Below the pieces are notes generated by a model. The model was not told where the DNA came from, ran no database searches, and saw nothing but the letters and a program-made list of their open reading frames with translations. Shown here one piece after another: positions 8,949 to 10,823 of a stretch of DNA of 64,000 nucleotides; within the stretch, counting starts at the first letter, position 1, and the number at the start of each line of letters is the position of its first letter. A program made the position numbers and the translations under genes. The DNA is from Euzebyella marina (GTDB lineage: Bacteria > Bacteroidota > Bacteroidia > Flavobacteriales > Flavobacteriaceae). Location: assembly GCF_014855515.1 (NCBI RefSeq), contig NZ_JACYFK010000002.1, forward strand, positions 620,001 to 684,000, given 5' to 3'.

Positions 8949-9647
8949 CTAAAAAGTAACGTATATAATGCCGGTAATGATGGCCAAACCAAAGCTGAGA
9001 AGAGTACCTATTAATATGTATTCGGTAAGTTTTCTGTTATTACTTTCTTTTAAGTCGTTGAATCTGAAAACAGATTTTGCCCCTATCAAAAGACCAATAG
9101 CTTCCCAACGCCCCATAATGATGAACATAAGTACAAAAAGCCTCTCAATTATGCCAATATATTTACCGGCGTTAGGTAGAGATTTATGATCTAGCTCAAT
9201 TTTATCCGACATGGCCTCCAGCAACTTACCCATGATAATGGCCGAAGGAAAACTTACAAAAACCAAGGCTGTAATCAACCCCCAATCCAGTCTTTGGAAC
9301 AAAGTGACGGTGTGGGACCAAAAATCAGTATAGTAGGCGCATATATAGAGTATTATTAGATGCAACAACTGATCGATAAAAAAGGGGATGCTCTTCAATT
9401 TAAAATATGGAGTGGCATACAACTTGGCCAAATCGATAATATAATGTGACACGGCTATAATAGCGACCATCTGAATATAATCAAGGTCCCACAACAACAC
9501 CATGGCCACTAGAAAATGGATGAGTACGTGAAAATAGATGTATTTAGAAGTTATCTTATTAGCTTCTTTATGAACCACCCATCTAGAGGGCTGAAGTATA
9601 AAATCACCTATCAAATGGGCCAAAAGAAGTTTTACAAAGACTATCAT
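8949..9647 (-). CDS. DUF3307 family membrane protein, partner of SatD
   Basis: A 232-residue protein with several membrane segments. The N-terminal 'KLLLAHLIGDFILQPSRWV' and the following 'HVLIHFLVAMVLL' match DUF3307, and further hydrophobic stretches lie at about 55-70, 85-100, 125-145 and 205-230. Conserved His and Asp residues inside the first helices (HLIGDF, HYIIDLAK) suggest a metal or polar substrate site in the membrane; that is inference. It starts 10 nt after the SatD gene, so the two form an operon. No function is established. Confidence 0.85.
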   Translation of the reverse strand: MIVFVKLLLAHLIGDFILQPSRWVVHKEANKITSKYIYFHVLIHFLVAMVLLWDLDYIQMVAIIAVSHYIIDLAKLYATPYFKLKSIPFFIDQLLHLIILYICAYYTDFWSHTVTLFQRLDWGLITALVFVSFPSAIIMGKLLEAMSDKIELDHKSLPNAGKYIGIIERLFVLMFIIMGRWEAIGLLIGAKSVFRFNDLKESNNRKLTEYILIGTLLSFGLAIITGIIYVTF

Positions 9648-9657
9648 CTAGTTTATT

Positions 9658-10260
9658 TTAGTCAAGATTCTCTTTAAAATATTCAATCAATTGCAAAATC
9701 AGGTCTAGTCTGGCTCTTTTTAATCGTTGGCTTACGGCAGATTGCTGAATACCTAAACGTTCGGCCATTTCTTGTTGCGACATTTCTGGGTTTTGCAGGG
9801 CCAAAACAACGATTTCGGCAGAAACCGTACTCCAGGCGTCCATAATATCAAGTGCCAAGCGCAACATAAGGTTAATGGTGTCATCAAATTTTGCTTGCCC
9901 TGTATTCACCGAAAGATTCAGCTTATCTACTTTCAGGTGCTCAAATGTTCTACCTGAACGCTGATAGGCAGTACCATTTGATTCACTTACACTCTCTCCC
10001 TGAAATGTTTCAGAACCTATGCCAACAGCCATTCGTGCGTCTAAACCTTTTATTGTTTTGAGCAGCGCTTTTATGTAAATAGCTTGAAACAAAGCCTCTT
10101 TTGGTAATGCCAACTTGAGCTGAAATTCATCTCCGCGGTAAACTTCCCAATCATTTGACACTTCCCCAATGGTCGCTAAATACTTCTTTAGCATTACGAG
10201 CCATTCATAGGAGTCGTGATTTCCAGAACCTATAATATCGCCAGTGATTATCGCTATCAT
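9658..10260 (-). CDS. SatD family protein with C-terminal helix-turn-helix
   Basis: A 200-residue protein. The first strand carries an acidic site ('AIITGDIIGS', Asp8), and a later hairpin reads 'YRGDEFQL' (about residues 42-49), which resembles the GGDEF/cyclase palm-domain signature. Residues about 155-190 form a helix-turn-helix of the sigma region 4 type: 'SQQEMAERLGIQQSAVSQRL'. The layout suggests a palm-domain-like sensor or enzyme joined to a DNA-binding domain. SatD members are poorly characterised. Upstream lie three repeated 12-bp elements that could be its own operator. It is first in an operon with the DUF3307 gene. Confidence 0.82.
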   Translation of the reverse strand: MIAIITGDIIGSGNHDSYEWLVMLKKYLATIGEVSNDWEVYRGDEFQLKLALPKEALFQAIYIKALLKTIKGLDARMAVGIGSETFQGESVSESNGTAYQRSGRTFEHLKVDKLNLSVNTGQAKFDDTINLMLRLALDIMDAWSTVSAEIVVLALQNPEMSQQEMAERLGIQQSAVSQRLKRARLDLILQLIEYFKENLD

Positions 10261-10264
10261 CTAT

Positions 10265-10338
10265 ATAAGTTTAAAAGCTAATATATTAATTTATCACCTA
10301 AAAAACTAATAAAAATAAAAATAAGCTTAAAAGCTAAT
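10265..10338. repeat. Three iteron-like elements at 28-bp spacing upstream of SatD gene
   Basis: TTAAAAGCTAAT occurs at 10271-10282 and 10327-10338, with a 10-of-12 match (TAAAAAACTAAT) at 10299-10310. The three copies are exactly 28 bp apart. The outer two extend to an 18-bp near-identical block (10265-10282 and 10321-10338, one mismatch) and contain the inverted repeat AGCTT-AA-AAGCT (perfect at 10324-10335, one mismatch at 10268-10279). The array occupies the promoter region of the SatD gene, which starts at 10260. An operator for the SatD helix-turn-helix is the simplest reading. Confidence 0.7.
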
Positions 10339-10370
10339 TTTTTGAATTATAAGCCAAAGAGTCAATGAAT

Positions 10371-10823
10371 TTAAAACCACCGACGGGTCTTGATGCAATA
10401 CTGTCTAAATTCTTTACCGAAAATAGTTTCTAAGGCCTCTTCTTCGGGCACTATCTGAAACCGATTCATATATGCTACAAATGCCGCTGCCAGCAAAGTA
10501 TTAAAAGCGTTACCCAACCAGAGCCCCCATGCCAATAGAATCATTAACATCGCTAAATACATCGGGTTTCTTGAAAAAGCATAAATGCCGCTATCGACCA
10601 GATGACTAGCCTTTGAAGGATTAATGGGGTCAACAGTTGTTTTACTGTTTTGAAATTGAAAAAGAGCTACCAATACGACCAAAAAGGCAGCTATTAATAA
10701 CCCTAGTAAAAGATAATTTCTTCCAAAAAAGTCAAAATACCCGAAAGGCAATATCTTTGCCAACAGATACATCATCAGACCAAAACATAAGAAAACGATA
10801 ACAGGAGGAATCTTTAATTTCAT
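10371..10823 (-). CDS. Isoprenylcysteine carboxyl methyltransferase (ICMT/PEMT)-like membrane protein
   Basis: A 150-residue membrane protein with four hydrophobic segments. The conserved SAM-binding part near the C-terminus reads 'DSGIYAFSRNPMYLAMLMIL' (about 82-101) and 'VPEEEALETIFGKEFRQYC', which is the standard ICMT/phospholipid methyltransferase motif. The substrate is unknown; bacterial homologues probably methylate lipids or small molecules. I placed the start at the ATG at 10823 rather than the TTG one codon upstream. It is divergent from rdgB. Confidence 0.85.
   Translation of the reverse strand: MKLKIPPVIVFLCFGLMMYLLAKILPFGYFDFFGRNYLLLGLLIAAFLVVLVALFQFQNSKTTVDPINPSKASHLVDSGIYAFSRNPMYLAMLMILLAWGLWLGNAFNTLLAAAFVAYMNRFQIVPEEEALETIFGKEFRQYCIKTRRWF

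Follow-up and report, generated by a model that had tools for sequence, protein, structure and literature searches.

In the window (the whole 64,000-nucleotide stretch of Euzebyella marina DNA analysed here), satD is located on the minus strand at 9658–10260, and its partner, a DUF3307 gene, lies 10 bp downstream on the same strand (8949–9647). The two products match the Pfam families PF16264 (43.9 bits, cut-off 29) and PF11750 (94.3 bits, cut-off 23), respectively; in NCBIfam, SatD reaches no family above the cut-off and DUF3307 reaches none at E ≤0.1. By Pfam, satD is flanked by DUF3307 and by an ICMT/PEMT-like methyltransferase gene. The start of satD (10260, minus strand) is separated from the stop of the methyltransferase-like gene (10371) by a gap of 110 bp, most of which is occupied by three imperfect 20-bp palindromes and one extra half-site (10264–10354). 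A terminator-like stem on the minus strand (10361–10384) overlaps both the methyltransferase gene, at its end, and the border of this gap.

SatD consists of a nucleotidyl-cyclase-like domain (residues 1–123), followed by helices with a C-terminal helix-turn-helix (HTH). In the AlphaFold2 model (pLDDT 97.3), residues 1–123 form the palm fold of the class III cyclases and GGDEF proteins. The fold comparison (VIA, Z 9.3 over 111–124 residues, rmsd 3.0–3.5) is only suggestive by itself at a Z near 9, and the best Foldseek match of SatD has an E of 1.5e-3, with none at ≤0.001. The profile of the N-terminal domain matches that of the adenylyl cyclase Ma1120 with an E of 3.6e-4 (HMM), and Asp8 and Asp44 align with the acidic motifs TDI and GDG of Ma1120. 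Both residues, which we take to be metal-binding, are kept in nearly all relatives (Asp8 in 210 and Asp44 in 211 of 212 SatD proteins). SatD is thereby related by fold and profile to the class III nucleotidyl cyclase/GGDEF palm superfamily, with both acidic positions present. The HTH, which the original prediction had also placed at the end of SatD, matches Sigma70_r4 in Pfam and is of a common kind.

In 206 of 212 loci, the ORF downstream of satD (taken as the longest one on the same strand that begins no more than 300 bp after it) is DUF3307-like, with a 4-bp overlap in 103. The DUF3307 model is all-helical without a beta domain (pLDDT 92.3). Its best Foldseek match in the PDB has an E of 2.4, which is no clear match and leaves room for a known fold, so that no fold is claimed. 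The protein contains the nearly invariant residues His11, Asp15, His40, His68, Asp72, Asp92 and His96, a pattern from which a membrane metal enzyme may be guessed. PADLOC defence annotation gives only weak matches (E 0.0073 and worse). Relatives of the window SatD or DUF3307 were absent from phage records by tblastn, and a search of viral contigs with one peptide pattern confirmed none.

Palindromic array in the gap upstream of satD

Exact copies of TTAAAAGCTAAT are situated at 10271–10282 and 10327–10338, and TAAAAAACTAAT, with 2 mismatches, is situated between them at 10299–10310, so that the exact 28-bp period of three elements claimed in the original prediction is borne out. The inverted repeat AGCTT-AA-AAGCT, which had been ascribed to both outer elements, is perfect in the right-hand one, and the left one reads AGTTT-AA-AAGCT. 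A single 12-mer is not rare, with 26 matches in the window at ≤2 mismatches against 19.8 ± 4.7 expected. Because such 12-mers are common in the AT-rich window, the case is built on the register and the relatives; the unusual feature is the register of the elements and its conservation, not the single 12-mer. The 12-mer was also rejected as the repeat unit, each copy being a piece of a 20-bp palindrome.

On the satD strand, the half-sites of these palindromes are TATTAGC and GCTTATA, and corresponding half-sites are exactly 28 bp apart. The palindrome nearest the satD start, U1 (10264–10283, TATTAGC-TTTTAA-ACTTATA), contains half-sites at 10277–10283 and 10264–10270 with 0 and 1 mismatches. The degenerate palindrome U2 (10292–10311, TATTAGT-TTTTTA-GGTGATA) keeps the 28-bp register, with half-sites at 10305–10311 and 10292–10298 and 1 and 2 mismatches. 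U3 (10320–10339, AATTAGC-TTTTAA-GCTTATT), in the same register, contains half-sites at 10333–10339 and 10320–10326 with 1 mismatch each. A seventh half-site (GCTTATA, 10348–10354, also on the minus strand) has 0 mismatches and no clear partner, and is spaced 28 bp from its counterpart in U3.

Under a strict scorer (at most 1 mismatch per half-site), the window array is a chain of only 3 half-sites, so it belongs to the 53 of 212 satD upstream regions with fewer than 4 chained half-sites; a chain of 3 or more was also reached by 66 of 636 shuffles of satD upstream regions (63 of three, 3 of four). The window array is degenerate, and by itself the evidence would be weak. Its probable membership of the family of arrays described below rests on the register, on the relatives and on U1 as the best match genome-wide.

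When the pattern TATTAGC-N6-GCTTATA was sought over the whole 4.67-Mb genome, U1 was the best place and the sole one with 1 mismatch among the matches listed. A wide regulon in this genome was therefore rejected, the 27 further listed places with 2 mismatches including U3. At ≤3 mismatches, a reversed control pattern was commoner than the pattern itself (420 and 448 versus 256 and 256). Across 20 genomes, the exact pattern TATWAGC-N6-GCTWATA occurred at 23 places in 15 genomes, 21 of them just upstream of satD; the genomes G002 and G417 each have one of the two places away from satD, and only G417 contains the reversed control pattern.

Conservation of the half-site ladder among relatives

At E ≤0.001, SatD genes were present in 223 of 397 family genomes, 109 of 395 in a phylum draw and 59 of 196 in an order draw, the draws overlapping. 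The genomes are a drawn sample, and the fetched loci are a part of the SatD matches: 224 loci yielded 212 different SatD proteins from the window's phylum whose genes have 250 bp or more of upstream DNA, 12 loci with a protein already in the set being dropped. A script selected the start codons, and the named relatives L031–L033 are presumably Bacteroidota. By eye, nearly all same-family members among the first 32 relatives carry tandem TATTAGC...GCTTATA palindromes up to the start codon, L020 being the exception. Three more distant relatives possess tandem palindromes of a different sequence, and further such cases exist in other families.

Compared with dinucleotide shuffles, 20-bp palindromes (7-bp arms) are enriched 3.8-fold and 22-bp ones 3.6-fold. 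The distances between palindromes peak at 14, 28, 42, 56, 70 and 84 bp, with additional peaks at 29 and 58 bp and a weak one at 21 bp; the 28-bp distance between 20-bp palindromes occurs 159 times, versus 0.7 in shuffles. These distances describe a ladder in which successive 7-bp half-sites point in opposite directions across gaps of 6 and 8 bp; 7 + 6 + 7 + 8 thus gives the 28-bp period. The gap sizes were learned from the same upstream regions that were later scored; for the shuffles and real-sequence controls, the scorer was identical and the word could be chosen just as freely. Of the 212 satD upstream regions, 159 contain chains of four or more alternately inverted half-sites with a 28–29-bp period, versus 3 of 636 shuffles. 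In the real-sequence controls from the same loci, no such chain appeared in any of 492 sequences (212 far upstream, 212 in-gene and 68 upstream of other ORFs). Within the arrays, successive half-sites of the same orientation follow each other at 28 bp in 214 cases and at 29 bp in 75, with 2 exceptions, and the longest chain contains 15 half-sites (L056). Conservation upstream of orthologues, on which the original prediction had been staked beforehand, is therefore strong.

Some SatD branches depart from this arrangement. A divergent branch (L137, L140, L142, L146) has a longer stretch before the recognition helix and lacks an upstream array, its chains reaching only 2 or 3 half-sites. A second branch (L144, L147, L150–L154) possesses recognition helices such as PAFYKNKEAG or AAVYKNREDG, and has array words of the kind GTTTAAT/GTTGAAT, which do not fit the TATNNN frame of most arrays. 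Two SatD copies were fetched from each of three genomes (L126/L131, L118/L151 and L115/L153), and the half-sites differ within each pair; those of L126 and L131 are one base apart, L131 being a chain of 3 only.

SatD–DUF3307 pairs also exist on plasmids of Proteobacteria and Segatella. The plasmid pairs L225–L232 and L234 are from Segatella, Vibrio, Salinivibrio, Sphingomonas, Pseudomonas, Enterobacter, Klebsiella and E. coli; on a 3.8-kb mobilizable plasmid the pair constitutes two of the five annotated genes, and on a Sphingomonas plasmid a gene for a Pycsar system effector family protein (L228:3569–4072) is located just beyond the pair. Among ten plasmid upstream regions, three contain a chain of at least 4 half-sites (Vibrio lentus 6, Enterobacter 4, Pseudoalteromonas 4), one a chain of 3 and six a chain of 2. 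In complete E. coli genomes, no match was obtained to the E. coli plasmid pair (near search) or to the Enterobacter pair (distant search).

Co-variation of half-sites and the SatD recognition helix

Half-sites are alike inside one array and different between lineages. The analysis of this variation used 146 of the 159 arrays, 13 being left out with words outside the TATNNN frame. The commonest words are TATAAG (40 arrays), TATTCC (22), TATTAG, TATCGG and TATCGT (13 each) and TATCAC (9), alongside others. In the predicted structure, the recognition helix spans residues 173–182 and contains residues 174, 175 and 178; in the window, the codons for residues 174–182 are located at 9715–9741 on the minus strand, and residues 174, 175, 178 and 182 co-vary with the half-sites. 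By mutual information, residue 178 is the top of 199 SatD columns for half-site positions 4, 5 and 6, with an excess of 0.79, 0.83 and 0.77 over these positions, compared with 0.40, 0.66 and 0.49 for the runner-up and a column median of 0.07–0.09. Columns 174 and 175 are also high, and columns 138 and 192, outside the helix, are among the top ones as well. Half-site position 7 shows no tie to residue 178 beyond that of other columns.

The correspondence between recognition-helix residues 174, 175 and 178 and half-site bases 4–6 can be read residue by residue at position 178. Gln accompanies TAT(A/T)AG in 50 of 54 arrays, Lys accompanies TATTCC or TATGCC in 24 of 28, and words of the TATC.. type accompany Glu in 22 of 25 and Gly in 8 of 8. 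Asp is found with TATCG. (6/6), Arg with TATTAC (6/9), and Ser, Asn, Met or Thr with TATCAC or TATCAT (9/12); Leu (3 arrays) and His (1 array) are too few to judge. This code was first seen in a table of the arrays and tested afterwards, with TATAAG and TATTAG treated as one class in the pair, tree and leave-out tests.

In the pair test, SatD proteins 55–65% identical outside the HTH share their half-site in 397 of 458 pairs with the same residue 178, versus 10 of 301 with a different one. The contrast persists in more distant bins, where it can be weaker: 140 of 288 versus 40 of 2240 pairs at 45–55%, and 142 of 372 versus 147 of 1798 at 20–35%. In the tree test, based on residues 1–140 of the 146 proteins and on Fitch reconstructions with arbitrary tie-breaking, the 44 inferred half-site changes coincide best with changes in columns 175, 178, 146, 174 and 182, in this order (z 4.8, 4.0, 3.3, 3.3 and 3.2), column 188 being sixth. 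Columns 175 and 182 exceed all 300 random draws, and columns 178, 146 and 174 equal the largest draw. Column 146, third in this ranking, is situated outside the recognition helix. The spacing of positions 174, 175, 178 and 182 would place them on one helix face.

In the leave-out test, residues 174, 175 and 178 predict the half-site in 48 of 55 testable cases when relatives with at least 50% N-domain identity are withheld, and in 36 of 42 testable cases (of 146) when those with at least 40% are withheld. At the same exclusions, the nearest remaining relative predicts 19 and 16 of 146, respectively; always guessing the commonest class gives 53 of 146, and residue 178 alone gives 56 of 134 at the strictest exclusion (at least 40% withheld). 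Because of the pair bins, the tree test and the leave-out prediction, shared ancestry is not the explanation of the code; the dependence of operator sequence on the recognition helix appears in these data as covariation.

Probable self-control of the satD–DUF3307 operon and comparison with known systems

The elements upstream of satD are very likely part of the satD operator, and SatD would bind the ladder through its C-terminal HTH and control the satD–DUF3307 operon. The operator of an autoregulated unit, as originally proposed, is supported by the conservation, by the co-variation of half-site and recognition helix and by the near-confinement of exact sites to satD. An array beside the regulator's own gene and conserved there (159/212, against 3/636 shuffles and 0/492 controls) is the arrangement of an autoregulated one-component regulator. 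Furthermore, the letters of the half-site change together with the SatD residues that would read them, so satD very probably controls itself.

In the proposed mechanism, SatD would occupy a ladder directly upstream of satD that has a 28-bp period and, owing to the alternating 6- and 8-bp gaps, dyads every 14 bp; its dimers may lie side by side and block their own promoter, and the length of the array may set the threshold of self-control. We infer cooperativity and a negative sign of control, the latter because the array is near the start codon and often over the −7 promoter box. According to PMC6847099, the promoters of F. johnsoniae possess a −7 box TAnnTTTG, mostly 4–5 nt before the transcription start. 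Of the 212 satD upstream regions, 76 contain this motif within their last 60 nt (10.7 in shuffles) and 27 contain it between −120 and −61 (7.9 in shuffles). It overlaps a half-site in 47 of the 62 arrays having a box in the last 60 nt, and in 22 upstream regions it ends 4 nt before the start codon. The median distance from the last half-site to the start codon is 16 nt (159 arrays). In the window, the exact TAnnTTTG is absent from the 110 bases before satD, and a sigma-70 scan gives four weak matches, none of Bacteroidota type. As for the signal sensed by SatD, a nucleotide is the natural guess, because the N-terminal domain is a palm of the class III cyclase/GGDEF type that retains its two acidic motifs.

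Among the rival readings, activation of the operon by SatD from the same array is unlikely. Up to 15 chained half-sites reach far upstream, as activator sites may, and the HTH matches Sigma70_r4; however, the half-sites closest to the gene are placed at the −7 box or a short way from the start codon (median 16 nt), which is the position of a repressor. A very unlikely alternative is that another, unlinked regulator uses the array as its operator and that SatD is just a regulated gene. It would suit an HTH of a common kind whose binding to the array is itself deduced, but such a regulator would not be expected to make residue 178 the one of 199 SatD columns most tied to the half-site bases. The recognition-helix positions also stay among the top columns in the tree test and predict half-sites without close relatives, and exact sites are nearly confined to satD.

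Two further readings dispense with a DNA-binding regulator and have hardly any probability. In one, the repeats function at the RNA level, as consecutive leader hairpins that form a terminator, riboswitch or attenuator. Palindromes can indeed fold into RNA stems, but the −7 box, where recognisable, is often within 60 nt of the start codon (76/212), so most units would sit upstream of the transcription start, and the half-sites track the HTH. Moreover, the region 10100–10500 gives no Rfam match at E ≤1, and a known RNA family at this site was rejected. In the other, the array is a neutral low-complexity repeat or a chance spacing in an AT-rich gap, as the commonness of single elements in the window and the chains of 3 in 66 of 636 shuffles would allow; the register and sequence are, however, conserved across families, and chains of at least 4 are missing from all 492 real-sequence controls.

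With the array read as the SatD operator, the family gains a first mechanistic handle, namely a readable operator whose sequence is predicted from three residues, together with evidence that SatD would mainly serve its own operon. Regulator and operator form a nearly closed pair with many specificity switches (44 inferred half-site changes on the tree of 146) and therefore provide a natural data set for the evolution of protein–DNA specificity, one whose predictions lend themselves directly to bench work. In the titles and abstract openings of the matches listed, the literature search returned no SatD operator (also none for streptococcal satD), no function for DUF3307 and almost nothing on the two-gene family. 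PMC10326533 names the SatD family, and the available excerpt of PMC4886424, on the cyclase-like family DUF2652, contains no mention of SatD and was rejected as a description of it. In Streptococcus pyogenes, according to PMC11323703, only one accessory gene ranks in the top quarter by essentiality, and it is annotated as satD; this would fit a module with a restrained effector.

A bolder reading, possible but rather doubtful, is that SatD–DUF3307 is a mobile nucleotide-signalling guard module. The cyclase SatD would read its own fast-evolving ladder, its dose and product would restrain the membrane protein DUF3307, and DUF3307 would be released when phage or stress disturbs either the nucleotide or SatD; the 14-bp dyad spacing would permit SatD dimers to line up as a filament along the promoter. 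This reading draws indirect support from the cyclase palm with its conserved acidic residues, the close pairing with DUF3307, the plasmid carriage, the differing half-sites of the three co-resident pairs and the S. pyogenes essentiality (PMC11323703).

Several known systems resemble the satD unit in part. In Panoptes, according to PMC12657218, the mCpol protein OptS is paired with the membrane effector OptE. The gene order is alike, a nucleotidyl-cyclase/polymerase palm gene being followed by a membrane protein gene, and OptS (9mnr) is among the Foldseek matches of SatD (E 0.043). Compared with Panoptes, SatD possesses an HTH and an operator array, and the DUF3307 model is all-helical whereas OptE, as described there, is a beta-barrel; the two-TM plus beta-barrel effector architecture (S-2TMbeta) was not found in DUF3307. 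The class III adenylyl cyclases (Ma1120, Mycobacterium avium) share with SatD the fold, the N-domain profile and the residues corresponding to Asp8 and Asp44, but the SatD domain is shorter and fused to an HTH, and SatD is a putative cyclase by fold and profile. The satD gene of the Streptococcus sat locus is the name-giving gene of the family; the window protein, compared with it at the level of the family, shares the name through its match to PF16264.

Plasmid iterons are evenly spaced repeats read by a protein coded beside them. The satD array is similar in its even spacing and in the candidate reader, SatD, coded next to it. Nevertheless, the term iteron-like used in the original prediction does not hold strictly: the half-sites alternate in orientation, and by Pfam the neighbours of satD in the window are not replication genes, unlike the same-orientation direct repeats beside a replication gene that make up a plasmid iteron origin. 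In type II toxin–antitoxin operons, the DNA-binding antitoxin comes first and is autoregulating, with palindromic operators over the promoter. The satD unit is likewise a two-gene operon with the DNA-binding gene first and a partner that usually overlaps or adjoins it, with several palindromes over the promoter region and with plasmid carriage, but SatD is a 200-residue protein of cyclase fold and its partner is a predicted membrane protein. The autoregulator with an operator array is a known kind of regulator, of which SatD with its array would be a variant.
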